This document shows positions 647-29,313 of a stretch of DNA of 29,313 bases, piece by piece. A program made the translations under genes and the position numbers. How positions within the stretch are numbered: the first letter of the stretch is position 1; every line of letters begins with the position of its first letter. The DNA comes from a virus: positions 1 through 29,313 of IMG/VR virus record IMGVR_UViG_3300042868_003443, one strand, 5' to 3'. The notes beneath the pieces were generated by a model, which made no database searches, was not told the origin of the DNA, and saw nothing but the letters and a program-made list of their open reading frames with translations.

Positions 647-897
647 AACTACTTAAATTTTCTGCAGCATGGTGCCAACCATGTAAGCAACTAGATGTAT
701 TCCTAGCAGAAGCTTTATTGGAATATCCTGAAATTGAACTTGTAAGTATGCCTATTGAGGATAACAAAGACTCAGTAACTTACTACGGTATCCGTACAGT
801 ACCTACCATGATTATGGTTGATGACAATGATCAGGTACTCAGGACTTCGGTAGGCTTTACACCTACTAAGGTTAAACCTTTCTTAGCAGGTACCTAA
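643..897 (+). CDS. Thioredoxin-like protein
   Basis: An 84-residue thioredoxin-fold protein. The redox motif WCQPC is at residues 10-14 after a short first beta strand (KLLKFSAA), and the cis-proline is in RTVPTM (P54), followed by a beta strand and a GF turn (GFTPTKVKPF). It is shorter than bacterial thioredoxins (about 105 residues), with the N-terminal helix missing, as is common in phage versions. The expected role is to reduce the C-terminal cysteine pair of the class II ribonucleotide reductase encoded just upstream. The start overlaps the previous stop as ATGA. Glutaredoxin is less likely given the Trp before the first Cys and the QP between the cysteines. Confidence 0.9.
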   Translation: MKLLKFSAAWCQPCKQLDVFLAEALLEYPEIELVSMPIEDNKDSVTYYGIRTVPTMIMVDDNDQVLRTSVGFTPTKVKPFLAGT

Positions 898-903
898 TAG
901 AAA

Positions 904-978
904 AGCGGGATAGCTCAGTAGAAGAGCGCTGGACTCATAATCCAGAGGTCAGAGGTGCGACTCCTTTTCCCGCAACCA
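904..978 (+). tRNA. tRNA-Met-type (anticodon CAT), with encoded CCA
   Basis: The cloverleaf folds with acceptor 904-910 / 968-974 (six pairs plus an A1-A72 mismatch), D-stem GCTC/GAGC (913-916, 924-927), anticodon stem CTGGA/TCCAG (929-933, 941-945), loop CTCATAA with anticodon CAT at 936-938, and T-stem 951-955/963-967. CCA is encoded at 976-978. The anticodon stem lacks the three G-C pairs of initiator tRNA, so this is an elongator Met, or a tRNA-Ile reading AUA if C34 is modified to lysidine. Oddities: the D-loop (AGTAGAA) has no GG pair, and the T-loop (TGCGACT) has G in place of the usual T55, so the normal elbow contact cannot form in the usual way. Confidence 0.8.
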
Positions 979-2493: not shown

Positions 2494-2540
2494 AAAAAAA
2501 AAATAACCCCTACTAGGATAATTCCTAATAGGGGTTTTTT
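2492..2540. terminator. Bidirectional intrinsic terminator between converging clusters
   Basis: An inverted repeat at 2505-2518 / 2523-2536 (AACCCCTACTAGGA with TCCTAATAGGGGTT, one C-A mismatch, four-base loop) is flanked by a T-run at 2535-2540 on the + strand and a run of A at 2492-2503, which is a U-run for the - strand. It therefore can stop transcription of the + strand cluster ending at 2493 and of the - strand late cluster ending at 2550. No other gene or signal is seen in the 56-base gap. Confidence 0.9.
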
Positions 2541-2549
2541 ATTTGTTAC

Positions 2550-5500
2550 TTAAGTAAAGAAATAAATCTCACCATTATTTGCTCTATTTTTAATTTTCAT
2601 TAAAGCATTCTTGCGATTTTTATTTAAATCTTTAGTCCAATCTTTAAGCTTTTCAAATATATTAAACTTTTTAGCCATAGATTTATAAAGTATATTAACC
2701 TGAGCACGAGTAAGTACTACTGTATCTGGTCTATTTTCAGGTAGAACATAACCAGAACGCTTATCCATTAAATTATTTTTAAATTCTTTTTCTGGTCCAG
2801 TTAATTTTTCACCTGCTTTTTCTTTCTCTAATATGTAACCTAGATTACGATCTAATACAGTAAACATACCTTTATAAGGTGACTTGTCATTAATAACAAT
2901 TGTGTTACCCTGTTTAGAAAGCTCTTGATCTATCTCAGCCATTTGTAAATTATAATCTTCTTCAAATTTACCAGTCATATCCCATGCTAAAATACGAGGA
3001 ACAATAATATTGTTAGCTACATATAGAGTCATAAGATAACTATCAGCATCTAAAATAAAGTTATCAAACACAGGAGACATGTTAAGCATTTGGAACGGAT
3101 CTTTATCACCATTAATATAACGCATAGTCTCAAGCATTACCATTGACTCTCGATACTGACCCATAACAGGACCAATACCGTTACGAGCTGCTGTTCCTGG
3201 ACCCGGAGGTTCAATATTAGCACCATCAAAACCTTTAGTACCTTTATCTTTAGCTTTAGCTTCAGGATCTAAACCTAAGAAACCTTTAATTTTTCTTTTT
3301 ATAGTAGCATACCTACTAGATATCTCTATATCTTGGTCAGTATCATATACACCAGACTTACCAATACTAATTCTTTCGTTATGAAAACCTACTGGGGCAG
3401 GCACACGACCAAACATTTGCATTAATTCTACAAGTTGTTTAGGTAAAGCGTATTGCCAGCCATCACCAGCAGCGTTTAAAGTTTTAAAATAAATTTCATT
3501 TAATTCTTCAACGAGTTTTTTGTAATCATTTTTATAATGGCTTAGCATTTCATCTTTAAAAGATGGGTATTCATTAAGGAAAGCCATAGCTTCTTCAAAG
3601 TGATACATCATTGGCTTACCATAATCGGTAGTCAGCAATACTTTCTTACCAAAAGATTTATTAAAGTCTTTGTTGCCTTCAAACTTAGCAAAAGCTGCTT
3701 TCCAAGCTCTTAATTTTTCTTGATCAGCAGCACCAAAAGCAGAATCTAAACCTTCTTTTACAGCAACCTCGGTAAAGAAAGCTCGTGGGTCTTTACCACC
3801 AGTAACATCCTGCCATTCTCTATTAGTAAAGGTATCCCAGATCAAACCAACTCGTGAAAGAATATTTTCTTTACCAACGTCCATAGCTAGGAATGTTCTT
3901 CCAGCTGAGTTCATGTCAATAGCAACAGTAGTTCTAGGTGTAAATGGTTTGCCTTGTTCTTTAGCATCCATATAAGAAGCAGCATCTAAAAAGGCTTGTA
4001 AAGTATAGCCATAATCATCTCGACCTGAGGTGTTTAACCACGTAAGCATTGCATTACGTTGTGGCTCAGTCATGTTTTGAGTGTATTCAGGCTTAATTAA
4101 GCTTGCATCACCCGGTATTTTCTTTACACCTCTATTGTATTGAGCATCAACTGCTTGAGCAACACTAAGTATTTCATTAACAATTTCTTTAGTAGAATTA
4201 GGAACTAAAGACCTTAGTTGTCTACCAATGCTAGCTGCATTCATAATAAACGCAGGAGAAACTATACTGAGCATTTCAGGGATAGTCATGTTCTCTGTTT
4301 TAAAACCAGTACCTGCATACTTACCTACATCTAAAGCTCTACCTAATATAGCTAAGAAAGATAATTCTCTTTCTGCTTGAGTAAGATTAAAATCTCTACC
4401 CCTAGCTTTGCTTCCAATCTTGTTCCAAAAGTCTGTTGCTTTTTCTTTGCTAATTCCTTTTGTATGATAAGTAGTCTCTCCAAAAAGCATAGGTTTAGCA
4501 CTAAACACCATCAAAGCACGAGTTAATTTATTGCGTTGTTCAGCAAAGTCAACTGCATCTTGGTATAAACGGTGTGTTGAATAGTCGTCTCGATACTTAG
4601 TAAAGTTAGGGCTACCATCAGCCATAAAACCAGCTTGATGGAAGAATTCGCTTGCAAGTAAATTAAGTTTACTCTTCAAAGAATTCTTTTTATCTGGGTA
4701 ATCATCTGGGATTCTAGCATCTTCAAGATCTTCATTACTAATTTTAAAGTAAGGAAGCATATCTACATTGCCTTCAACAGGTACACCATTGTTATTAATT
4801 TGACTTAGCAACATCTTAAACATATTAAGAGCGTGAAAGCCTTTAATAGGTGAAGACAATTTACCAATACTACCCGCAATACGTTTACCTTCGTCAATCT
4901 GAGTTAAAGGTTGGTATCCGGGTTTCTTTATATCTCCTGGACGAATGTTACGACTAGCACCTACTAATTCACCTGTATCACTTACAGGAACCTTCTGAGA
5001 CCTAGCAGACAATCTACCTGTAATGGCGTGTTCTAACTCTTTAGTGTCTCGATAATAATCTAGACCTTTATTAGTAGGAACAACAGCCATTACACCTTTA
5101 ACATTAATTTCAGTTAAATAACCTGCATCAATTTGAGCTTGAGTATAAGCAGCACCAGATTCTGTATTAGAAATTCTTGCTTGGGGAACAGCAGCTTGAT
5201 TTAAAGGTCTGCCTTGATCATCAACTGACTTGCGGGTTTTGCTAAACACGTTAGCTGTACGTCCAGCCGCTGTCTCATAAGACTCCCTAGTAAGAAGACC
5301 ACCTACGTATTTAAGGTTAAGTGGACCTTCTTCACCATCACTGCTTAACAAAGCATTGATACCTGTTAGCGTATCATTAGACTCTTCATCAAAGAAATCT
5401 GCTTCTGAAATAGTAGAATCATCTTGAGAACGAGGTTTCATTCTTTTAGAATTACCAACAGCAAGCGGCATAAGAGTAGTCATTGCTAACGTACCCATGT

Positions 5501-6110
5501 TAGCAGCTGTACGTGTTGTAACACCATAAGCATCAGCAAGTCTTGTTAGCCCGTTTTGAACTTCACCTGAAGGAGTTTTAATTTCCATGTTAGCTAAAGA
5601 CAAACCAATATCTTTAGAAGCACGGAGAGGAGTTGCAGCTACAGTAGGCTTCATAACACCATCACCAATAGCGGCATTAAGATCCTCTACTGTTTTCATG
5701 CGAGTTAATTGTGCAAGAGAAGTAACTCTTTGTTGTTGTGATTCTATTTCTTGCTGACGAAGTTGCATCATTTGTTCGTAAGGTATTTCATTACCTTGAC
5801 GATCCATAATAGACCTACCTGCTCCAGCGCCTTCATCTGGGTACAAATCTTTATAAGTATCTATACCAAATTCATCTAGGTAATCATCACTAAAAAGATT
5901 ACGTTCTTTACCATAATAATTAGCATCTTCAGGAGATGTTGTATCCTCATCAGCACTCATACCTGTATATGCTAATGGAGGAGGGGCTTGTTGTTCCTCT
6001 GATACAGCTATTGCAGGTACTTCTGTTTCTGAAATACGTTCTCTTAAAAAGTCTGAGCCAACACCTTGTGGTACACTTGATGGGCGGGGTACGTTAACAA
6101 ATTTAGACAT
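2550..6110 (-). CDS. Putative virion RNA polymerase, N4 vRNAP/T7-like single-subunit type
   Basis: An 1186-residue protein, last gene of the late cluster. It carries what look like the three catalytic motifs of single-subunit RNA polymerases. Motif A is AIDMNSAGRTF (D732). Motif B is NKSFGKKVLLTTDYGKP, with K818, K822 and Y830 at -12, -8 and 0, the exact spacing of N4 vRNAP K666/K670/Y678 and T7 R627/K631/Y639. Motif C is PVFDNF (D1016) in place of T7 HDSF. D732 to Y830 is 98 residues (T7 102); Y830 to D1016 is 186 (T7 173). Length is close to the 1106-residue catalytic core of N4 vRNAP. The N-terminal 120 residues are acidic and Gln-rich. A candidate T/DxxGR motif (ASIGR, R630) is weak. SD GGAG lies upstream. 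In N4 the packaged polymerase is ejected to transcribe early genes; that role here is inferred from motif and gene position. Confidence 0.65.
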   Translation of the reverse strand: MSKFVNVPRPSSVPQGVGSDFLRERISETEVPAIAVSEEQQAPPPLAYTGMSADEDTTSPEDANYYGKERNLFSDDYLDEFGIDTYKDLYPDEGAGAGRSIMDRQGNEIPYEQMMQLRQQEIESQQQRVTSLAQLTRMKTVEDLNAAIGDGVMKPTVAATPLRASKDIGLSLANMEIKTPSGEVQNGLTRLADAYGVTTRTAANMGTLAMTTLMPLAVGNSKRMKPRSQDDSTISEADFFDEESNDTLTGINALLSSDGEEGPLNLKYVGGLLTRESYETAAGRTANVFSKTRKSVDDQGRPLNQAAVPQARISNTESGAAYTQAQIDAGYLTEINVKGVMAVVPTNKGLDYYRDTKELEHAITGRLSARSQKVPVSDTGELVGASRNIRPGDIKKPGYQPLTQIDEGKRIAGSIGKLSSPIKGFHALNMFKMLLSQINNNGVPVEGNVDMLPYFKISNEDLEDARIPDDYPDKKNSLKSKLNLLASEFFHQAGFMADGSPNFTKYRDDYSTHRLYQDAVDFAEQRNKLTRALMVFSAKPMLFGETTYHTKGISKEKATDFWNKIGSKARGRDFNLTQAERELSFLAILGRALDVGKYAGTGFKTENMTIPEMLSIVSPAFIMNAASIGRQLRSLVPNSTKEIVNEILSVAQAVDAQYNRGVKKIPGDASLIKPEYTQNMTEPQRNAMLTWLNTSGRDDYGYTLQAFLDAASYMDAKEQGKPFTPRTTVAIDMNSAGRTFLAMDVGKENILSRVGLIWDTFTNREWQDVTGGKDPRAFFTEVAVKEGLDSAFGAADQEKLRAWKAAFAKFEGNKDFNKSFGKKVLLTTDYGKPMMYHFEEAMAFLNEYPSFKDEMLSHYKNDYKKLVEELNEIYFKTLNAAGDGWQYALPKQLVELMQMFGRVPAPVGFHNERISIGKSGVYDTDQDIEISSRYATIKRKIKGFLGLDPEAKAKDKGTKGFDGANIEPPGPGTAARNGIGPVMGQYRESMVMLETMRYINGDKDPFQMLNMSPVFDNFILDADSYLMTLYVANNIIVPRILAWDMTGKFEEDYNLQMAEIDQELSKQGNTIVINDKSPYKGMFTVLDRNLGYILEKEKAGEKLTGPEKEFKNNLMDKRSGYVLPENRPDTVVLTRAQVNILYKSMAKKFNIFEKLKDWTKDLNKNRKNALMKIKNRANNGEIYFFT

Positions 6111-14947: not shown

Positions 14948-17900
14948 TTACATTGCGGCAATTACAAAAGCTAATAGCTCTTCATATCGCAGACCAAGTG
15001 TTGTTATACCTTCTTCAGATGTATCAGAACAGAACAGTCCATAGTGATTAGCGTTAAGACCTTCTGCAGTAAAAGCATCTTGTACTTCTTGAGCAATAGC
15101 TCCTACGTGAATACGTGCTTGACTACCTTTGCTTTGTACTGCATCTTTAAATCTAAACTTTTTAATTAAAGATTTAATACGTCTTGCAACAGCTAACTCA
15201 GCTAAAGATAGTTCTTCAATATCTTCCTTTTCATTCCTGTCTGATGTGTTAATAGTACCTGTAGTAGCATAGATAACTGTCCATCTAAAAGAAGAAAACC
15301 CGCAAGAATAAGAATTATCAGTTGTTGGTGATAAAGTAGGAGGAGAACTTGCTCCATTAAAGAAAACACCATTACTTGAACTATTAACTAACGCAGCTGT
15401 TGTAGCATTAGATTTTAAACCTACAATAGTACCAACTAAAACAGTTTGATAATTACTAGTAGCATCTCCAACCTTAGCACTTGTTCCACTTGAAGTAATG
15501 TATCCACTAGGATTAGAACTATTGTATGGTGTATAACCTAAAGCACCTGTAACATTACCGCTAGTAAGTGATAATGTACCACCAAGAGTTAAATTACCAG
15601 TGCTAGTTACTGTTCCGGATAATGTTAAACCAGATACACTTCCTGTACCACCAACTGAAGTAACACCAGTACCCGCTGCCCATGTACCATCTTGTTTAAG
15701 ATAACCTGTACCACCTGTAGTAGGTGCAGGAATAGATCCAACACCCCAGTTAAATACTCCCCAAGGTGCAAGGTTAGTACCAAGATTCATTCTTGTACCA
15801 GCAGTTGAGGAATTACCTGAAAAACTTGGTCCTGCAGTTGTTCCTAAAGTTAAAGCACTAATCAGAATACCAGCAGTATAAGTAGTAACTCCATTATAAC
15901 CAGCCATAAGAACAATATTAGAACCGTTAGAGGCAATACCCGGAGCATTAACCGTAGTAGGTGCTAAACTATAAGACATCCTTACATGAGTTGTACCTAA
16001 CTGATTTAAAAAGAAATCACCAGTATCTAATGTAAGTAATGATGCACCACTTAAAGTATTTCCATTAGCCGCATAATAAGCAATCTGATTAGCGGTTCCA
16101 CTGTTAATAGCAGTAGCAGAAGGTGTGTAAGTTAATACACCAGTAGATGAATTATAACTAATTGACCCTGCACCTGAAGCACTAGCATTAGTAGTACTAA
16201 ATGGGTGTACGTGGTTTCCTCTAGAAAACTTAGCAGATGATCCAGCAGATGCTGTTCCTCCTGCAATAGGTACTGATGTAAAACCATAATCATTACCAGA
16301 CAAGTCTAACAATGAAGGTGTTTGTAATCCACTCTCTAAACGGTTGTTAGAGTTAGAAGAATAGGCATCTGTAGCACTCTCAAAAGAACATCCAACTAAA
16401 TCTACTTTACAACGACTTCCTGTGTTACCAATAGTCATACGACTTGGGTCAGGAACATAGCTATTAAGACCTTTAAATCCACAACCTGAAATAGCAATAG
16501 TAAAACCATTACCAGCAGTTGCATCTAAAAGAATACTGTTAGTAGTATATGGTGAACCGAATCTTACAAAAGAACATCCTGTAATAGTGTTGCTTACACC
16601 AGCTTTAGATTGAGTACTTGTTACATATACGTCTGCAATACCTGCATTACCTTCAAAGTAAACACCAGTAAAGGTAAATCCATCAGCACCTTCAATAGCA
16701 GTTGAGCCTGAAGGTTCAGCAACACGAACTCCCCAGTTACTCGATGAGCCTGATGTTGTGCCATTAGCTTCGATAGCTCCACCAAGAATATTAAATGTAC
16801 TACATCCAAGGATATAAATACCATACTCAGAGTTAGCACCTACTTCACAATTAACAAGTGTAATAGCGTTAGGTGAACTGGCGTTAGTTGTTCCAATTCT
16901 TTCAAACAACATACCACGAGTGTTAAATCTAAATTGACAAGATACAAGAGTAGAAGTTAAAAAGTTAGAGCCATACATACCATATAACCAACCAGTAAAC
17001 TGGCATGATTCAATATGTAAAAAAGCACCACCAGTAACTGAGAGACCTTGTCCTACAGTACCAGAGTTATTAACAAAGGCAAGTCCTTTAATGTTAGTAT
17101 ATACATTAAGGTTAGTACCCGCAATAGTAAGACCATTAGCATTAGTTGTTTGCAACAATATAGATGCACCAATACCTTCACCTAAGAAGTGAACTCGTTG
17201 TCCAGGATCTAAAGCAGGAGCAGTGTATGTAAGAGAACTTGTTAACCTATAAAGACCATTAGGAAAATATACTGTTCCACCTGTAGAAACAGCAGAGTTA
17301 ATAGCAGATTGAATAGCAGCAGTATCATCTGTTGCACCATCACCTACAGCACCATAATTTTTAACATTATATTTGCGATCAGTAACAGCCCATGTACCAT
17401 CCCCTCTTAAATAGGTTGATGATGTAGGTACTCCAGTAGCAAGGGATGACGTAGGTATTTGACCACTATAAGTAATACCCATTGTTCCATTAGATGTCAA
17501 TGGTGAATTGCTTACTGCAAATCCTGTGGGTACAGTTATACCAACACTGCTTAATCCACCAGTGCCTCCTGCAACACCCCATGTACCATCACCACGTAAC
17601 ACTTTAGTTACATCGTTAGGTGGAGGCTGAACACGTACTGTTCCTAATGTTCCTGAGTATACAGGATTAGTACCATTAGTAAATGATCCAGTATTAGAAC
17701 CAATAATAACCGTGTTTGTTCCTGATACAGGACCAACAACTGGTTTTCTAAATGTTATAGAAGCAGCAGTTACAGAACCTGATACAGATACTGTCCACTG
17801 GTTATTAATATTAGTAGATATAGCCGCTGACAGTTCTTGAATAGTAGAAAGAAATTCAGGCTCATACTCAAGAACAAATATATAGTTTGTACTTTCAAGA

Positions 17901-20302
17901 GTAATGTTATAAGTTAAAGCGCCAGAAGATTGAAAGTTAAATGTTGGAACTACAATAGTTGCATATGTACCGGGAGTAACAATAGTACTTGTATTAGTAG
18001 GGAAGTCTAATCCCCTAAAATAACCAATACCTGATTTAGTTCCTGCAGTACCTGCTGTTCCTGTTACACCATCAAAAGCATAACCATCACCAGTACCGCC
18101 AGCAAAGAAAGCCGCACCAGTGCTTGAACCAGTAAGAGCCATAAAAGCAGGATTAGTGTGACCTGAACCTACAACGTCAATCCTAAAACCAGCATCGGGA
18201 TTACTACCAGAGTTAATAGCACCATAAAATAATCTACCATTAGCATTAGATACAGCAGAAAAACCATTACCAGCTCCACTAGTATTAGCAGTAACACCTG
18301 AGCCAATAGCTCCTGAGTATTCTAACCATATAGGATTTGTAATACTTGAAGTACCACTAATACCAATAACAGCACTGTTAACGTCAGCACCACCAGTACC
18401 ACCTAATGTAAGAAACTTATTGTTACTTGAATCATAGGCTGTAATACGATTATCTCGTACTGTGGTTGATGGGGGTACAAGACTATTAATCTCAATACGT
18501 TGTCCTGTTGTACCTGTTTTAAATCCTGAAGTCTGAATTTCACCTGCTGTTACTGTACCAATATTAGCAGTAATAGATGACAAAGAAGAAACAGAAAGTT
18601 TACTTGCAGTAATTGTGTTCTCTACAATAAGAGAACCAGTAATATATGTTGTGAATAATGTCCATGAAACTACATAGCGGTATACAACAGCATTATTAAA
18701 GTTGTTATAGCTTACTGTTACAATATCGCCTGACACAGGGTCACGACCAATAGCCGCATTCACTTCAACATTTGTAGGAGCACTACTATCATTAGCTACA
18801 CGAGTAATAACAAAGGTAGCTGAACCCGCAGAGCCAACAGCACCATTAGCACCATTGTAAGCAATACCTCTAATAGGGTATGCTACATTAGTCCAGTCAA
18901 GAGTAGATGTGGTTACAGTAGCCTCTTCATTAAGCGGTACAGTAATACTCCACAGATAATATCCTGGAGTTGTTTCACTAGGGGCTGATGTAAACCATCC
19001 AGTAGGTGGTGTGTATGCACCTGTAGACCATGTGTATGTAGAAGTAGTTGTGGGTCTTGCTGGAGGAGTTGAGTTAGCTGTCCATCGGTAGATAGCTGGA
19101 AATGCAGACATAATACCGTTAGCACCTGCTACGCCCGGAACACCATTGTACACAACAGGCATACTAATGACTTTAACTACGGGACTTGTAAGGTTAGAAC
19201 CATTAACAGTTAATGTTACGTCTACTTTAGTTGCAGCTGACAAAGGTGTAATAAGTACAGAGCTTGTTGTAGCTGTAGCTGGTGTAGCACCTGATATAAC
19301 CCAACTGTATGTTGGGCTTGTAATGTTACTTGTTATAGCCGCAAGAGTAGCATTAGGTGGGGTAAATGCACCACTAGATGCTTGTACAAAAGAAGTATAA
19401 CCTGAGATATCTACAGTAGGACCACTAGAGCCTGTTGCTCCGGGATCCGCAAAGACTAACTGAACAGTAGCAACACTAGCTTGTGTAACTGCTCCTGTAC
19501 TATTTTTAAACCTAATAGGGACAGTAATAGAAGCAGGACTACTAGCCATAGCAGATGGTGCTGACCAAGCAGCGTATTCACCTGCATCTGTAGGAGCACT
19601 AAAAGTAATATTAGTATAACCAATATCACCATTACCGCTTGTTGAACTGTTACCAATACGCCAAGTATTATTAACAAAGCTTACATCAGCGTCTGTTTGA
19701 GCATCTACAAAAGGAACTAACACATTAGAGTTAACTGCATATAACTTAGGTGTTATACCTGTAAACACAGGGGCTAATGGGTTACCTGTACGGGGTACCT
19801 GCATAACAGCAGGGGTAAAGAAAGATGAGAATGAATCAACAACAGTAGTGTTTGTTCCTGATGTAACAATATCAGCATCAATAGCTGTTCCGGGGTCTAC
19901 TAGCCAACCTGAAGCAGGTGCTGCAGTAGATACCGCAAAGTTAACTTTACGACCACCTACTGTTTGATAGAACAAGAACTTAGTTACACCAAATCCACCA
20001 GTGACTTCATACCAAGTATATGCTGCTGGATTGCTTGATTCACTTGAATCATCAGAGTTAAACACACCATAATAAGACCTGTTAGTAGGAACATTAGAAA
20101 TGTTAGTACCAACAGTATCATCAGCATATTTAATAGCAAGGTATCTATAAAGATACCCTACAATCTTACCAAATTTATCACTGATAATACCTGTAGCAGG
20201 GTCTACGGTTAGTCCGTCAGTAGCTCCAGATGTACCTTCAAGTACAAGCTGTGCTAGGAAAGCATCAAGCTCTCTGTCACCTGTAATAGGTGGATTAAAC
20301 AT
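14948..20302 (-). CDS. Tailspike / host-recognition protein: beta-helix plus self-cleaving S74 chaperone
   Basis: A 1784-residue receptor-binding or depolymerase protein. In order: an N-terminal region GDRELDAFLAQLVLEG; a domain with YLYRYLAIKYADD and NPAAYTWYEVTGGFG seen in many aquatic phage tail proteins; Ig-like Ser/Thr-rich parts; a phage J-like stretch (ENTITASKLSVSSLSSITAN); a pectate-lyase-3-type beta-helix from about residue 976 (KNYGAVGDGATDDTAAIQSA, then YFPNGLYRL) to about 1280; tail repeats including ALGYTPYNSSNPSGYI; and an S74 intramolecular chaperone starting SDRNEKEDIEE at S1687, with HVGAIAQEVQDAF. Cleavage before S1687 would release 98 residues after trimerisation. The start is the ATG at 20302 with GGAGGT directly upstream; an in-frame reading from 20332 is less likely. 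Sugar-cleaving activity is possible, not shown. Confidence 0.85.
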   Translation of the reverse strand: MFNPPITGDRELDAFLAQLVLEGTSGATDGLTVDPATGIISDKFGKIVGYLYRYLAIKYADDTVGTNISNVPTNRSYYGVFNSDDSSESSNPAAYTWYEVTGGFGVTKFLFYQTVGGRKVNFAVSTAAPASGWLVDPGTAIDADIVTSGTNTTVVDSFSSFFTPAVMQVPRTGNPLAPVFTGITPKLYAVNSNVLVPFVDAQTDADVSFVNNTWRIGNSSTSGNGDIGYTNITFSAPTDAGEYAAWSAPSAMASSPASITVPIRFKNSTGAVTQASVATVQLVFADPGATGSSGPTVDISGYTSFVQASSGAFTPPNATLAAITSNITSPTYSWVISGATPATATTSSVLITPLSAATKVDVTLTVNGSNLTSPVVKVISMPVVYNGVPGVAGANGIMSAFPAIYRWTANSTPPARPTTTSTYTWSTGAYTPPTGWFTSAPSETTPGYYLWSITVPLNEEATVTTSTLDWTNVAYPIRGIAYNGANGAVGSAGSATFVITRVANDSSAPTNVEVNAAIGRDPVSGDIVTVSYNNFNNAVVYRYVVSWTLFTTYITGSLIVENTITASKLSVSSLSSITANIGTVTAGEIQTSGFKTGTTGQRIEINSLVPPSTTVRDNRITAYDSSNNKFLTLGGTGGADVNSAVIGISGTSSITNPIWLEYSGAIGSGVTANTSGAGNGFSAVSNANGRLFYGAINSGSNPDAGFRIDVVGSGHTNPAFMALTGSSTGAAFFAGGTGDGYAFDGVTGTAGTAGTKSGIGYFRGLDFPTNTSTIVTPGTYATIVVPTFNFQSSGALTYNITLESTNYIFVLEYEPEFLSTIQELSAAISTNINNQWTVSVSGSVTAASITFRKPVVGPVSGTNTVIIGSNTGSFTNGTNPVYSGTLGTVRVQPPPNDVTKVLRGDGTWGVAGGTGGLSSVGITVPTGFAVSNSPLTSNGTMGITYSGQIPTSSLATGVPTSSTYLRGDGTWAVTDRKYNVKNYGAVGDGATDDTAAIQSAINSAVSTGGTVYFPNGLYRLTSSLTYTAPALDPGQRVHFLGEGIGASILLQTTNANGLTIAGTNLNVYTNIKGLAFVNNSGTVGQGLSVTGGAFLHIESCQFTGWLYGMYGSNFLTSTLVSCQFRFNTRGMLFERIGTTNASSPNAITLVNCEVGANSEYGIYILGCSTFNILGGAIEANGTTSGSSSNWGVRVAEPSGSTAIEGADGFTFTGVYFEGNAGIADVYVTSTQSKAGVSNTITGCSFVRFGSPYTTNSILLDATAGNGFTIAISGCGFKGLNSYVPDPSRMTIGNTGSRCKVDLVGCSFESATDAYSSNSNNRLESGLQTPSLLDLSGNDYGFTSVPIAGGTASAGSSAKFSRGNHVHPFSTTNASASGAGSISYNSSTGVLTYTPSATAINSGTANQIAYYAANGNTLSGASLLTLDTGDFFLNQLGTTHVRMSYSLAPTTVNAPGIASNGSNIVLMAGYNGVTTYTAGILISALTLGTTAGPSFSGNSSTAGTRMNLGTNLAPWGVFNWGVGSIPAPTTGGTGYLKQDGTWAAGTGVTSVGGTGSVSGLTLSGTVTSTGNLTLGGTLSLTSGNVTGALGYTPYNSSNPSGYITSSGTSAKVGDATSNYQTVLVGTIVGLKSNATTAALVNSSSNGVFFNGASSPPTLSPTTDNSYSCGFSSFRWTVIYATTGTINTSDRNEKEDIEELSLAELAVARRIKSLIKKFRFKDAVQSKGSQARIHVGAIAQEVQDAFTAEGLNANHYGLFCSDTSEEGITTLGLRYEELLAFVIAAM

Positions 20303-20303
20303 G

Positions 20304-21854
20304 TTACCTCCGATCAGCAGGTTTAGCGTCAAGAGCCATCATAGCCAGCCGCCAATAATTCGTTGCAGTAATTCTGTAGTTAAGTACACGACCATTAACC
20401 CGTGGGTCAACCTTATAGCCCTGTGACTTTTCATTGTTAGGAAGAAATGTAAATGTATCTTTTAATGCCGCATCATCTACAGATAAGTCTACATTCTTAA
20501 CATAATTGTTTTGTCCTACAACTCTGATAGTAATATTAGAGTCATTAGGTACTGTATCAAACACAGGATACAAAGAAGTAATTAAAGAACTTCCTGTAAC
20601 ATCACCTGAGTTAAGTTTCTTTTTCTCTACATACGAAGTAAAAGAAGCTAATGCAGTACCATTCCACAATTGGAAGGCATCAGACTCTACTAATGTTGTA
20701 GTTGTTGTAGTTGTAAAGTATACTACTTCTTTGCCATATTGAAATGCGTTAGATACATTAGATGGACCAAAGAAAGAATAAGTCATGTTGGTAGCTTGAC
20801 GTTTAGACCATGTATTATTTTTATAATTATAGATCAATACTTCATTGCATACTGTAGAACTTCCTTTAGGATAATTAATCCAGACTTCTTTGTAATAAGC
20901 ATGTCTTGTTACGTGTACTTTATCAATAGCATTCTTATTTAAATTATTAAAGAAATACTTTTTAATTCTGAAGTCAGCAAGAGATTCAATACTACCTGAA
21001 CCATTGTGAATGTAAATGTCATTACGGTCAACAACTAAGTGTTTACCATCAAACTCACATACACAATCTACAGATAAGATTCCATAAGACCGACTATAAG
21101 GAACAACTCGTGTTCCATTAATTCCAATAGACAATATACTGATACTGTCTGAGGAATATATAAACATATTACCTCTCAACTCAGCCATATCTAATATGGG
21201 AGATGTAGAGTTAATTTCAAATTCATCTGCGGTATCTGTTGTAGTTCCTGGTTGCCATACAGTAGGTATAGCTCCAGTAGCCGCTTGTACAGACACTCGT
21301 ACAGTACTTGGTGCGTATGTTGTAATACCTGTACTACTGTCTGCAATAGTAAGGTTAGCCGCAACAAGCGAGTAGTTAAGTGATCTAACTACTTTAGCAG
21401 TAACAGTTAAGTTACCAAGATAATTCCAGTTAGGAAGTGGGAGAAATGCTGATCCAGCATTAATGTCTCCATACAAACAATATATAGGTGTTGTTCTACC
21501 ATTGTTAAGTACAATAGCAAAACCACCATTAAACAAAGTTCCTTGCCAATCACTGTTTGTGTAATTGCCACCAGTACCAGTAAACATAGTTGACTGATTA
21601 CCAGCAGCATCTACACGAACAATGTTACCATCTTTAGCAAAGATGTTATATCCTTGATCAGGACGCCTCCAATGAATGCCATAGTCAGGGGCAATAGAAA
21701 CTGTCCTATAAATAGATTCACCTGTAATTGTTGATACTGCTTCGTCATCAAAGCGTACATTGAGTACGTCTGTAAATGTATTCTGAGGTACAATCATAGG
21801 TGGTAAGTCTGTATTGAGACCGCCTTTACCTAGCTGTTCGATTGGGATTGCCAT
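20304..21854 (-). CDS. Tail nozzle / DNA-stabilisation-like structural protein
   Basis: A 516-residue structural protein. Its start MAIPIEQLGKGGLNTDLPP and the following NVRFDDEAVSTITGE resemble tail proteins of marine podoviruses. Repeated short beta-strand blocks (WQGTLFNGGFAIVLNNGR, LDMAELRGNMFIYSSDS, NEVLIYNYKNNTWSKR) suggest a beta-propeller like T7 gp12 or P22 gp10, which close the tail end and hold in the DNA. It sits just before the tailspike gene, which fits a tail-tip location. A run of seven Thr codons occurs near 20694-20714. The stop (TAA) lies one base before the next ATG, inside its Shine-Dalgarno region. AAAGGAT precedes the start. Assignment is by pattern and context, not search. 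Confidence 0.6.
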   Translation of the reverse strand: MAIPIEQLGKGGLNTDLPPMIVPQNTFTDVLNVRFDDEAVSTITGESIYRTVSIAPDYGIHWRRPDQGYNIFAKDGNIVRVDAAGNQSTMFTGTGGNYTNSDWQGTLFNGGFAIVLNNGRTTPIYCLYGDINAGSAFLPLPNWNYLGNLTVTAKVVRSLNYSLVAANLTIADSSTGITTYAPSTVRVSVQAATGAIPTVWQPGTTTDTADEFEINSTSPILDMAELRGNMFIYSSDSISILSIGINGTRVVPYSRSYGILSVDCVCEFDGKHLVVDRNDIYIHNGSGSIESLADFRIKKYFFNNLNKNAIDKVHVTRHAYYKEVWINYPKGSSTVCNEVLIYNYKNNTWSKRQATNMTYSFFGPSNVSNAFQYGKEVVYFTTTTTTTLVESDAFQLWNGTALASFTSYVEKKKLNSGDVTGSSLITSLYPVFDTVPNDSNITIRVVGQNNYVKNVDLSVDDAALKDTFTFLPNNEKSQGYKVDPRVNGRVLNYRITATNYWRLAMMALDAKPADRR

Positions 21855-24484: not shown

Positions 24485-27400
24485 TTAAAGATTAGCGGCA
24501 TCTAGGCGTGCCTTAAGTGATTCAATGATTACTTGTTGTTCTTGAATACATTTCATTAAAGCGTATTGTAAATCTGTTTGGTAAATTTCTAAACGCATTT
24601 TAGGTTCTTCATCCTTAACAGCCCAATTGCTTTCGTTTACTAACTCAGGAGCAACTGCTTGCACATCTTGAGCAACTACACCTAAAGTTAAACCAACATC
24701 TAACTCAAGATCTTGGTCAATATAGTTAAATGTTTGAACAGGTATTGCACAAATCTTTTCAAGGTATGAAGTAGCGGGTGAAAAATTAATTTTTTCTCTG
24801 CGATCAGAAAGAATTACATTGTTTGCAGCATAGTTGGCAATACCACCATTTGACCTAACAGACATTCTTTGAACGCCTGCTCCAGTACAATAGAAAAATT
24901 CATTGGTAGTTCCATTGGGGTCTCCTGCTAAATCTATTCTCAGTCCATATTGGGCGGCTGTGTTTGAGCCTGCATGAGAAATTAATGCAGTCCAATCGCC
25001 TGTGTTTGTCGTTATTCGCATCTCGTGATAACTTGCAGCGCTATCAAAATAACTACCACTATTGCTTGCTTTAAAAGAACCGCCAGAGGTTATTCTGGCT
25101 CGTTCTGCGGCATTGTTATAAAACAAAAAGCTGCCACTACCATTGTTGTTTATATAGCCACTGCTTCCAAAATTGCCAAAATAAGTAAAGTTAGTTCCGC
25201 TTCCAGCAGTTCGAGCATAAAAAGCCGCACCATTAGTCCCATTAAGGTCTAAAGCCCTTGAAAAATTTGAACTGTCTGCCGGATTTGTAGTCCCTACCCC
25301 CAAATTCCCACTTCCATCCAGAATCATTGAACTTGCTGGTGCAGACCCAGCAAACTGAACTGCATCAGTACTACCCGCAGTTCCCGCACCTTTTACTCTG
25401 AATGTTCCATCCGTAGAAAAACGACCTCGTTCTGTAGAAGCTGCGCCTGAACCCGCTCCAAATGCTAAGGCGTTATCAGAACTAAGTATAACTGCACCCG
25501 CTGGGTGTGCTATATAAAAAGTGCTACTTACGTCATCAGATGTACTAAGAGAAACATTACCAAAAGTAGTAACAGATTTATATCCACGAACAGTTAATTT
25601 TCCGTAAGGCGTAATACCGCCTACTAGTAAATTACCGTTAGAGTCAATACGCATGGATTCCGATGCAGTTCCGCTATAAGTATTCCTACGAAAAATCAGA
25701 GATTCATTTTGTTTGACATCTATGTAACAAGGTGCAAGACCTGTTGTGCCAACCCATAAATCCATTCCATACGCTGATGAATAATAACCAAGTGAAATTA
25801 CAGGTGAGTTTGCGGTAGTGCCTGTAACACCAAGACGACGACCAATTGTGCAGTTTGGAATTGTTCCAAAAGAATCAATTAGACTTGTGCCAAATTGATA
25901 GTTTACATTGGCTTGAACGTTGTTTCCAACACCTAGATCGCCTGAATTTGAAATAGTTACAACTGTAGTTCCACTATTCCTAAATAAGTGACCACCACCA
26001 TCCTGAGAGTTGTAAATGTTTGCGCCAGTAGTAACTGCGTCGTGTTCAAAAGTACCATAGTAAGAAGGATTAGTACTGTTACTATGCCTTATTTGATCAC
26101 CAATAACGTGAAGTCTTGCTAATGGATTCGTTTGGTTAATACCTACATTGCCTGAGGAGTCGAGGATTAAACGATAGGCCGCAGCAGTATTGTCGTAAAA
26201 AATAAATCTGTTTGATGAGGTATTTTCAAGACCAAATTGCCAACGATTAACATCACCATTTTTAAAAGTAATAAGCGGGTCATTACCATTGAGTGTAAAA
26301 ATACTAGTAACACTAGTAGTGCCTACTCCAAAAAATCCAGCACTTGTAAGTCGCATCCGTTCTGTGCCATTGGTCATAAACGCAATTGGATAATTACCAC
26401 TTGAATAAAGGAATGAAGCGTATGCCGTTCCTGAATTAGCAAATGTTCCCGTGCTATTGTCCCGACCAATGTACATACTGCCGCCAGTATTTCTTACTTC
26501 TAAAGCGGCATAGTTTGTTCCTGCGGTTGTGTAGATTTCCTGTAAAGCCGCAGACGTATCACGAACAGACAATCGACCATTTCCAGTTGTGTCGCCAATA
26601 ACTAAATTTCCAGCGGATGATAGAGTCATCGCCTGAGTAAAGGAGATTATGCTTCCGCCACTGCCAGAGGGTGCAATATACCAACGATGTCCACTACCTA
26701 CTTGCTCATATCTTGAGGCGGGGGCAGAACCACCAGAAAAAATATATTTCCAAGCGTTAGATGCGTATTCGTAAGCGTTGTACCCAATAGTTGTATAGCC
26801 GTTTGAAGATTCATACACAGCACCAACTGCACCAACTTGCATTGCTTTAGAACTAGCCACCCAAGCACTCGGAGCAACGCCCAAACCTAGATTGCCTGCG
26901 GAATCAAGAGTCAACTTGGTTGAATCAGCAATACCAAAGAAGTGACTTTGACCAGATGGGACTTCGTAATAAAGACTACTTGCTGTTGCACCATTGCCAT
27001 AAATACCCGCCATTGTGGTTGATGCGTATGAACCATTAAATGACAATGCTGGCAAGCCTGTAGCGTTTGACAACACACCCAAAGTAATTGGTGTTGCTGA
27101 TGTTGATGTTTTTACATGAAGTGTTTGTGCGGGTGATGCGCCAACACCCAAATTAGTCCCATCAAAGACTAGCGCAGAGCCAGTAGCCAATGCACTAGAA
27201 CTAGATGCGTAAACCACACCGCCTGATGTGAACGATGTTAGGTTTGTACCGCCATTAGCCGTGGGCAATACACCATTGACACCTGCAGTTAAAGATACTG
27301 TGTTCTTTTCCCACAGACTATTACTTGAGTTGTATACAAGCGTTTGTCCGTTGGTGGGTGATTGGGCAGCCACATCATGTAGCTCATCCATCTCATATCC

Positions 27401-29313
27401 GTTTTGAATCTTGACTTCAATAGTACCTTGATTAGCATGCTGGTACGTGACAATACCAACGTACACCAAGTGAATCGGTGCGTAAGGTTTAGTGCTTGTG
27501 TAAGTACCCGCAGTAGTTCCGCTGAGATACAACTGAGTGCCATTAGCAAAAGCAGAGGTATCAAGACCGCTTACCACACCAATAACAACTACATAACCGT
27601 TTTGGTTAGTTGGAATGTCGGCTTGAATAACACCGTAAGTCTGTGCTGATGTAGCGTCTGCATTAGCCAATGCTTTAGATACAAGAGCTTTGTTGCTTGA
27701 CGCTCCGCTAACATATACAACAGTACCCTTGGTAAGTGTTGCGCCAGTCTCATTACGAACTTGGCTAATCAATGTAGCAGTGTTAAGAGCTGTTCCTACA
27801 GACAGGTCTCTTGTAGTACCTGTAGGACTAATCACAACACTACCGTCTACAGACGTCAATGTTTGAATTGCTGTGTCTGCTGTTGCACCTTGAGCCGCAG
27901 TAGCATACGCAGTACTGTTAGTAGTAGCCGCAGTACCAAGACCAAGGTTAGCCCTTGCGGTAGTTGCATCAGCTAAGTCAGAAAGATTGTTTGCTCTAAA
28001 AGCATATGTTGTGTCTGCACCTGTACCAGTAACACCAAGGTTAGATCGAGCACCTGAAGCATCACTTGCTCCTGTACCACCGTCAGCAACTGCCAAGTCA
28101 GTAATACCTGTGATAGATCCACCAGTAACAGTAACGCTATTAGAGTTCTGTACAGACATTGTACCAAGACCAGAAATATCTGTGTTGGCTAATACGACAT
28201 TACCTGTACGACCAGCTACGGATGTAACCAAATTAGTCTGGTCAATCTTCTGCCAGAATGCACCGTTAAAGATAGCCCAGTCACCGATAACCCAGTCAGT
28301 AACACCATCAAGGTTAGTACTACCTGAAGTAGATACAACATAGTATCCACCAGTAGTTCCTGTACCAGACGTCAGTGTAGGCGTGTTAGTAGATGCGTTC
28401 CATGTACCCAGATAAACAAGACCACCAGTAAGACTCACCCAAGTAGTATCATAGTTTGTGCTACTTAGTTTAGCTAATACTTGTCCAACTGTACCGCCTG
28501 TAGCAATACCCGGAGTATTAACCCATGAAATTCCTGTGTACACCTTCATCAAGCTGGTTGTTGAATTGAAGTACATTGCACCAGTAATCAATGCGTTACC
28601 GTCATTGTCTACTGTTGGATCTGCCGTCTTAGCACCAAGATAACGATCATCAAAGGAGTCGTATGAGGCTGCAGCAGAAGCAGCACTTGCAGCTGCATCA
28701 GATGCTTGTGTTGTAGCAATACCCGCTTGGGTAGTTGCCGTTGTTGCACTAGTAGACGCACTAGTAGCAGATCCTGCGGCAGATGTTGCAGAGTTAGCCG
28801 CATTGTTAGCTGATGTGTTAGCGGCAGTCGCACTGTTAGATGCATTAGTCGCCTGTGTAGTGGCAATACCCGCCTGAGTAGTTGCTGTAGCCGCACTAGC
28901 CGCAGAAGCAGTGGCACTGTTAGCAGATGCCGTTGCACTATTTGCTGAGTTAGTTGCTTGTGTTGTTGCTATACCAGCTTGTGTAGTCGCATTAGCGGCA
29001 CTTGCGGCAGAAGCCGTTGCACTGTTAGCTGAATTAGTCGCTGAAGTAGAAGCACTTGTTGCACTGTTTGTAGCAGATGTTGCTGAGGCAGTAGCAGATG
29101 TTGCACTGTTAGCCGCACTTGTAGCACTAGCAGTTGCACTTGTAGCACTGTTAGTTGCAGAGGTAGCTGAGGCAGTTGCAGATGTCGCTGAGTTAGCGGC
29201 ACTAGTAGCACTGTTAGCCGCATTAGTTGCAGAAGTACCAGCAGATGTCGCTGAGTTAGCCGCATTAGTTGCGCTTGTAGCCGCAGCTGCTTGACTTGCA
29301 GCCGCTTCTTCAG
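24485..29313 (-). CDS. Long tail fibre with S74 self-cleaving chaperone (N-terminus outside window)
   Basis: At least 1609 residues; the frame is open to the window edge, so the virion-anchoring N-terminus is missing. In order: a long Ala/Ser/Thr/Asn heptad-repeat coil (29313 to about 28680); YDSFDDRYLGAKTADPTVD and GNALITGAMYFN, the classic podoviral fibre transition; a LVYLGTWNASTNTPTL domain; tail repeats of the ADGGTGASDASGARSNLG type; about ten copies of a SGNLGVGTT-P-type motif across 24850-27160; and an S74 intramolecular chaperone starting SDRREKINFS, with the catalytic Ser codon at 24806-24808. Cleavage before this Ser would release 107 residues. The fibre binds the host receptor. 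Apparent starts inside the frame, near 28591, are not real gene starts. Confidence 0.9.
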   Translation of the reverse strand, partial: EEAAASQAAAATSATNAANSATSAGTSATNAANSATSAANSATSATASATSATNSATSATASATSAANSATSATASATSATNSATSASTSATNSANSATASAASAANATTQAGIATTQATNSANSATASANSATASAASAATATTQAGIATTQATNASNSATAANTSANNAANSATSAAGSATSASTSATTATTQAGIATTQASDAAASAASAAASYDSFDDRYLGAKTADPTVDNDGNALITGAMYFNSTTSLMKVYTGISWVNTPGIATGGTVGQVLAKLSSTNYDTTWVSLTGGLVYLGTWNASTNTPTLTSGTGTTGGYYVVSTSGSTNLDGVTDWVIGDWAIFNGAFWQKIDQTNLVTSVAGRTGNVVLANTDISGLGTMSVQNSNSVTVTGGSITGITDLAVADGGTGASDASGARSNLGVTGTGADTTYAFRANNLSDLADATTARANLGLGTAATTNSTAYATAAQGATADTAIQTLTSVDGSVVISPTGTTRDLSVGTALNTATLISQVRNETGATLTKGTVVYVSGASSNKALVSKALANADATSAQTYGVIQADIPTNQNGYVVVIGVVSGLDTSAFANGTQLYLSGTTAGTYTSTKPYAPIHLVYVGIVTYQHANQGTIEVKIQNGYEMDELHDVAAQSPTNGQTLVYNSSNSLWEKNTVSLTAGVNGVLPTANGGTNLTSFTSGGVVYASSSSALATGSALVFDGTNLGVGASPAQTLHVKTSTSATPITLGVLSNATGLPALSFNGSYASTTMAGIYGNGATASSLYYEVPSGQSHFFGIADSTKLTLDSAGNLGLGVAPSAWVASSKAMQVGAVGAVYESSNGYTTIGYNAYEYASNAWKYIFSGGSAPASRYEQVGSGHRWYIAPSGSGGSIISFTQAMTLSSAGNLVIGDTTGNGRLSVRDTSAALQEIYTTAGTNYAALEVRNTGGSMYIGRDNSTGTFANSGTAYASFLYSSGNYPIAFMTNGTERMRLTSAGFFGVGTTSVTSIFTLNGNDPLITFKNGDVNRWQFGLENTSSNRFIFYDNTAAAYRLILDSSGNVGINQTNPLARLHVIGDQIRHSNSTNPSYYGTFEHDAVTTGANIYNSQDGGGHLFRNSGTTVVTISNSGDLGVGNNVQANVNYQFGTSLIDSFGTIPNCTIGRRLGVTGTTANSPVISLGYYSSAYGMDLWVGTTGLAPCYIDVKQNESLIFRRNTYSGTASESMRIDSNGNLLVGGITPYGKLTVRGYKSVTTFGNVSLSTSDDVSSTFYIAHPAGAVILSSDNALAFGAGSGAASTERGRFSTDGTFRVKGAGTAGSTDAVQFAGSAPASSMILDGSGNLGVGTTNPADSSNFSRALDLNGTNGAAFYARTAGSGTNFTYFGNFGSSGYINNNGSGSFLFYNNAAERARITSGGSFKASNSGSYFDSAASYHEMRITTNTGDWTALISHAGSNTAAQYGLRIDLAGDPNGTTNEFFYCTGAGVQRMSVRSNGGIANYAANNVILSDRREKINFSPATSYLEKICAIPVQTFNYIDQDLELDVGLTLGVVAQDVQAVAPELVNESNWAVKDEEPKMRLEIYQTDLQYALMKCIQEQQVIIESLKARLDAANL
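28680..29313 (-). repeat. Heptad (21-nt period) Ala/Ser/Thr/Asn repeat in the tail fibre
   Basis: The fibre frame here is built almost only of A, S, T and N in seven-residue units such as NSATSAT and ASATSAT, interrupted three times by an ATTQAGIATTQA block (near 28965, 28865 and 28715). At DNA level this gives an imperfect 21-base periodicity. The likely product is a trimeric alanine-type coiled coil forming the fibre shaft. The repeat continues past the window edge. Confidence 0.85.

Follow-up and report, generated by a model that had tools for sequence, protein, structure and literature searches.

Virion-borne single-subunit RNA polymerases (RNAPs) are regarded as a hallmark of the Schitoviridae, in which they occur as giant proteins. 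In phage N4, early transcription is carried out by an injected polymerase, and the polymerase that acts next is an early-gene product (PMC4496689); a second phage RNAP is also used (PMC12633501, PMC4496689). The virion RNAPs (vRNAPs) of reference Schitoviridae are giant three-domain proteins of 2,842–3,820 aa, and an IMG/VR survey of N4-like viruses dropped vRNAP candidates shorter than 2,500 aa (PMC10654107). A putative vRNAP has been proposed in Stenotrophomonas phage StenR_269 and the Zobellviridae. Much as in the locus described here, the last ORF of the structural module in these LUZ24-like podophages is large and free of cysteine; nothing beyond its size, composition and helix content underlies the proposal (PMC10747016). 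In Roseobacter phage CRP-7, ORF30 is the sole named RNAP (PMC6918029).

Genomic setting of a core-sized polymerase gene

The stretch of DNA that we analyzed (the window) is a linear IMG/VR record of 29.3 kb from a short-tailed phage seen only as environmental DNA. Every large gene between 29311 and 2550 lies on its minus strand, in the order fibers with S74 chaperone domains, a LUZ24-related virion protein, genes of 1026 aa (P0003) and 1266 aa (P0002) and, finally, the polymerase P0001, which begins with ATG 3 nt past the end of P0002 (Table 1). Beyond the hairpin that follows the polymerase, small convergent genes and a tRNA-Met occupy the plus strand. The preliminary description had placed a core-sized enzyme, standing alone, as the last gene of the structural operon, and this arrangement is what we observe, ahead of a strong terminator-like hairpin. 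It had not given the strand, which is minus; the 1186-aa product and the positions of D732, K818, K822, Y830-G831 and D1016 are all exact in the ORF translation.

Relatives of the 516-aa virion protein occur in PaP3/LUZ24-like phages, Vibrio phages and CRP-7, and those of P0002 in PaP3/LUZ24-like, Vibrio and KPP25-like phages. The SNase-like nuclease domain of P0002 (residues 45–143) rests on a Pfam match with an E-value of 0.001, whose 20 bits fall just below the cut-off (21 bits). By pattern matching, a similar D/R/E/YGR signature is seen in several lineages, with examples in CRP-7 gp34 and in upstream ORFs of loci L085, L103 and L104. If real, this domain would mean that a nuclease is delivered with the DNA.

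Table 1. Coordinates of the polymerase, its motifs and neighboring features in the window (nt; residue numbers in aa)
Feature	Coordinates	Strand	Remarks
Polymerase P0001	2550..6110	-	Virion-type single-subunit RNA polymerase, stand-alone, 1186 aa, cysteine-free
N-terminal stretch, residues 1-100	5811..6110	-	Low confidence, probably disordered; RNAP fold begins near residue 95-110
Residues 507-533	4512..4592	-	Counterpart of T7 DxxGR ... NPQ motif; R514, K528, R531
Motif A, residues 723-745	3876..3944	-	FTPRTTVAIDMNSAGRTFLAMDV; D732 (3915-3917) invariant, aligned with N4 D559; DSSP strand 729-733
Motif B helix, residues 814-834	3609..3671	-	K818 (3657-3659), K822 (3645-3647), Y830 (3621-3623), G831
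Residues 980-990	3141..3173	-	GPVMGQYRESM, corresponds to T7-type HSxDAxHM motif; near-invariant Q985
Motif C beta hairpin, residues 1011-1024	3039..3080	-	MSPVFDNFILDADS; D1016 (3063-3065) invariant
Intrinsic-terminator-like hairpin	2505..2536	-	14 bp then T run, directly 3' of polymerase gene; late operon end
P0002	6114..9914	-	Putative ejection/internal virion protein, 1266 aa, cysteine-free; SNase-like domain at N-terminal end; LUZ24/KPP25 virion structural proteins are relatives of C-terminal part
P0003	9924..13004	-	1026 aa, cysteine-free; second large member of putative ejection cassette; position matches CRP-7 gp35
Very large fiber gene	14948-20332	-	C-terminal Peptidase_S74 intramolecular chaperone domain; pectate-lyase-like domain
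Virion structural protein	20304..21854	-	516 aa; PHROG 3287, E 6e-53; relatives in LUZ24-like phages and CRP-7
Very large fiber gene	24485-29311	-	C-terminal Peptidase_S74 intramolecular chaperone domain
tRNA-Met (CAT)	904-978	+	In convergent block beyond polymerase

Homologs, fold and catalytic residues

Searched as a single sequence, P0001 gave no match in Pfam, PHROGs, the PDB or GenBank phages, and sequence evidence for it appeared only once a family had been gathered. Two contigs carry copies at 90–91% identity. The route to known phages was provided by its neighbors, the 516-aa virion protein and P0002: in CRP-7, genes of 1223, 1368 and 1235 aa lie in the same places as the three large genes of the window, and gp33 resembles P0001 around motif C. 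Viral contigs were scanned with the T7-type RNAP of a sister contig aligned to CRP-7 gp30, yielding 80 loci, and iterated HMM searches across all collected loci recovered 66 P0001-family ORFs (58 non-redundant), with identity down to 12% and full-length members of ~1,170–1,370 aa. No isolate phage was found by tblastn with three divergent family members, and searches with P0002 and CRP-7 gp34 returned no further P0001 homolog in GenBank phages; in the LUZ24-like PaP3, Lyrsu01 and KIT05, no large gene follows the P0002 counterpart.

Before any T7-type sequence had been included, the profile of the family already picked up T7-type RNAPs at ~1e-6 in a set of 591 ORFs, with the DxxGR region and motifs A and C aligned. 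Compared by hhalign with 11 Schitoviridae vRNAP cores, the family matched over 662 columns covering N4 core residues 194–1006 (98.6%, E 1.4e-15, score 149), and in a profile–profile comparison with 12 T7-type RNAPs it also matched (96.8%, E 2.7e-10, score 96), whereas the N4 cores and the T7-type set matched each other at 3.0% (E 0.015, score 32). Because the larger family alignment is more diverse, we rescored five random, depth-matched subsets of the family, which gave scores of 89–132 against N4 and 55–91 against the T7-type set, with reversed controls at 18. Single members match PHROG 2206 “virion RNA polymerase” (4.4e-6) and PHROG 414 “RNA polymerase” (4.8e-8), independently of the profiles built here. 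A profile of ten family sequences found only a chance match in the PDB; with 57 sequences, 10 of 12 matches were to mitochondrial RNAP around motif C, at E-values of 0.6–1.3, and were therefore not used as proof.

The absence of a right-hand polymerase fold had been set beforehand as the result that would refute the polymerase assignment, and the predicted structure does have this fold. An AlphaFold model built from the 57-row alignment (mean pLDDT 77.9, pTM 0.81) matched, among the Foldseek hits to the PDB listed, yeast and human mitochondrial RNAP, T7 RNAP and N4 mini-vRNAP, with E-values down to 2e-13; among the matches listed, N4 chains had the top query-normalised TM-scores (0.41–0.42). 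In VIA-align, the overall Z was higher for T7 RNAP (24.0; 565 aligned residues, rmsd 5.1), whereas the alignment was longer for N4 mini-vRNAP (725 residues; Z 19.2, rmsd 6.2). Matches in a structure search of a viral library were T7-type RNAPs and N4-like vRNAPs. Secondary structure in the model is as expected around each motif and the fold superposes, a result that does not include distances between catalytic residues.

A joint alignment placed five motif blocks in register across the P0001 family, the N4-type and the T7-type groups, and FastTree separated these into three clades, with supports of 0.957 for the P0001 family, 0.999 for the Schitoviridae/N4-type enzymes and 0.588 for the T7-type split in an unrooted tree. 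As the root is not known, the tree does not settle which two of the three are sisters. The N4-type identity initially proposed thus holds in one respect, the profile being nearer to Schitoviridae vRNAPs than to T7-type RNAPs, and fails in another: P0001 belongs to a separate family and not to the Schitoviridae vRNAP clade. Could it instead be a regular T7-type (Autographiviridae-like) RNAP that is merely encoded at an atypical site? The fold is the same, with the VIA-align Z and the profile E-value to T7-type RNAPs given above, yet the Pfam model of these enzymes, PF00940, does not match P0001, the clade is separate, the N4 profile match is better and the relatives already carry a true T7-type RNAP. 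We consider this reading barely tenable.

Across the 57 family members aligned, only 6 of 1,186 positions are invariant and 5 more nearly so. Residues singled out in the preliminary description fall among these beyond chance in an alignment built afterwards: D732 and D1016, aligned with the N4 and T7-type motifs, are two of the six (57/57), and Y830 (56/57) and G831 are two of the five. A lysine or arginine stands at K822 in all 57 rows and at K818 in 52. All 51 rows extending to R514, the counterpart of the T7 DxxGR arginine, have Arg there, as do all 52 extending to R531. Motif B had been said to match K666/K670/Y678 of N4 vRNAP exactly in spacing; the spacing is correct, but N4 has R666 and not K666, and since R/K-x3-K-x7-Y is also found in T7-type RNAPs, it marks the superfamily and not N4. 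Likewise, the Phe that replaces the T7 His in motif C is present, but it is not odd, because FD occurs in 11/11 aligned Schitoviridae vRNAPs. The residue ahead of the motif C Asp is H in 32, Y in 14 and F in 11 family rows; the branch of the window has FD, as in all N4-type enzymes aligned, and the other branches HD or YD.

These substitutions bear on whether P0001 might be a degenerate polymerase fold retained as a structural ejection protein, a DNA-binding plug or motor part without RNA synthesis. Second-shell motif positions do depart from the consensus (in the branch of the window, DM for DG in motif A and THR for xGR), 18/57 members, those of the CRP-7 type included, carry Arg in place of the catalytic Lys of motif B, and Phe or Tyr precedes the motif C Asp in 25/57. 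However, the catalytic Asp pair is kept in every member, Y830 in all but one and R514 and R531 in all rows reaching them, and N4 vRNAP itself has FD in motif C. The P0001 gene is also under purifying selection, with a dN/dS of 0.10–0.16 relative to the two relatives that share 90–91% amino-acid identity. Loss of RNA synthesis therefore appears very improbable to us. We conclude, from the family profile matches, the invariant D732 and D1016 and the matches of the AlphaFold model, that P0001 is a single-subunit RNAP with conserved catalytic residues; its catalytic activity is inferred.

Partner polymerase and an inferred role as a packaged early polymerase

The sister contig encodes a 733-aa T7-type RNAP (P0013; L002:17394-19595, minus strand) ~3.8 kb beyond the polymerase gene, 38% identical to CRP-7 gp30; the window ends short of the corresponding position. 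Wherever a P0001-type gene and a T7-type RNAP gene were found near each other, they were convergent (51/51 loci), and a P0001-type gene was present at every T7-type RNAP locus for which 6 kb or more downstream was available. The T7-type RNAP sits in the replication region of the relatives.

Cysteine is absent from the 3,478 residues of P0001, P0002 and P0003, as it is from the 3,500 of N4 vRNAP. Over the whole P0001 family there are 0.14 cysteines per 1000 aa, vs. 15.9 in the T7-type RNAPs that these phages also encode, and the ORF upstream of the polymerase is large and almost always cysteine-free. One of the two large genes ahead of the polymerase, P0002, is related to annotated virion structural proteins. 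The position at the end of the late operon, the parallel with N4 gp50–gp52 and the cysteine-poor composition lead us to infer that the enzyme is virion-borne.

We regard it as likely that P0001 is a packaged and ejected RNAP that transcribes first and then hands over to the T7-type enzyme, although packaging, ejection, activity and the promoters and genes read are all inferred. The enzyme would be a DNA-dependent single-subunit RNAP with little beyond the catalytic core that lies in the middle of the giant N4 vRNAP. Made late, it would be loaded into the head alongside two further large ejection proteins, enter the cell with the first DNA and transcribe the early genes, among them the separate T7-type RNAP gene, whose product would take over the middle and late genes.

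The same gene could also encode an active RNAP that is not packaged, but is made late and acts in the infected cell on late genes or in replication priming, leaving the early genes to host RNAP. Packaging has not been demonstrated, and location in the late operon implies late expression, as this alternative would have it. It is nevertheless unlikely in our judgment: a further RNAP gene, of the T7 type, already lies next to it in the relatives, the near-total absence of Cys is common to the large neighbors and N4 vRNAP and not to T7-type RNAPs, and the adjacent P0002 is related to virion structural proteins.

A role of the enzyme in early transcription remains an inference, as promoter searches gave it little support. 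In two relatives, Sigma-70-like sites were no commoner than expected by chance in the regions presumed to be early. The support from this is weak, as no relative of the partner T7-type RNAP was found in the bacterial genomes searched and the host is therefore unknown. A hairpin and repeat search for vRNAP promoters in two relatives turned up a few short hairpins in the gaps between early genes, with no convincing common motif. In one relative (G008), the first early genes are preceded by two hairpins, at L122:185-200 and 672-687 (plus strand), with a covarying stem (AGGACA/TGTCCT and AGGATA/TATCCT); they are a lead only and could possibly be promoters or attenuators.

Relation to described enzymes

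N4 gp50 and the other Schitoviridae vRNAPs share with P0001 a homologous catalytic core over the 662 profile columns, with five motif blocks aligned, and with the branch of the window FD in motif C and the lack of cysteine; N4 gp50 likewise closes a late operon beside ejection proteins (gp51 and gp52; PMC12633501). In contrast to the ~3,500 aa of N4 vRNAP, P0001 has 1,186 aa and lacks both the membrane-binding N-terminal and the autoinhibitory C-terminal domain, and it fails two defining features of Schitoviridae vRNAPs, giant size and clade membership. The phages themselves differ from N4 in their LUZ24/CRP-7-like structural genes, with the longest relative contigs at 58–62 kb, and in having a one-chain T7-type enzyme as the partner RNAP. 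The T7-type RNAPs (sister-contig P0013, CRP-7 gp30 and T7 RNAP) share fold and catalytic residues with P0001, but they are cysteine-rich, recognized by PF00940, encoded in the replication region and placed in a separate clade. As regards the vRNAPs proposed for StenR_269 and the Zobellviridae, the P0001 family profile gave no match to the PA11 and ICP2 ORFs in the search set.

Our results show that a family of compact, stand-alone virion-type RNAPs is real. It is apparently undescribed, with the reservation that an earlier description cannot be excluded, most subscription journals being outside the literature searched. Its occurrence beside a T7-type RNAP in dozens of uncultivated relatives points to a widespread, so far unnamed way of starting infection. 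More tentatively, and with doubts that we do not wish to hide, the compact enzymes may form a third lineage of phage single-subunit RNAPs between the T7-type and N4 vRNAPs, and may retain a simple ejected form to which membrane-binding and autoinhibitory domains were later fused to give the giant N4 protein, with a two-polymerase program that perhaps works without host RNAP. If P0001 is packaged, the flanking domains of the giant N4 protein are not needed for ejection, a small enzyme becomes available for work on vRNAP promoters, and the family provides a sequence bridge between T7 RNAP and N4 vRNAP, enzymes that direct comparison can hardly connect.

Besides the dozens of uncultivated viruses, one cultured marine phage, CRP-7, has the core-sized form and is open to direct test. 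Its gp33 (MK613349; 1,235 aa), annotated only as a hypothetical protein, is a P0001 homolog with the same motifs. Its gene occupies the equivalent position, following gp35 and gp34, and faces that of the T7-type RNAP gp30 in the convergent arrangement seen in the relatives of P0001. The gp33 protein differs from the window protein, with which it shares 19% identity, by HD in motif C and an Arg at the motif B Lys. D693 was considered as the motif A Asp of gp33 and rejected; the family alignment identifies D678. Elsewhere in the CRP-7 record, two CDSs of 987 and 840 bp (L007:17250-18236 and 19029-19868), separated by another CDS, are both annotated as B12-dependent ribonucleotide reductase and may be a split gene.
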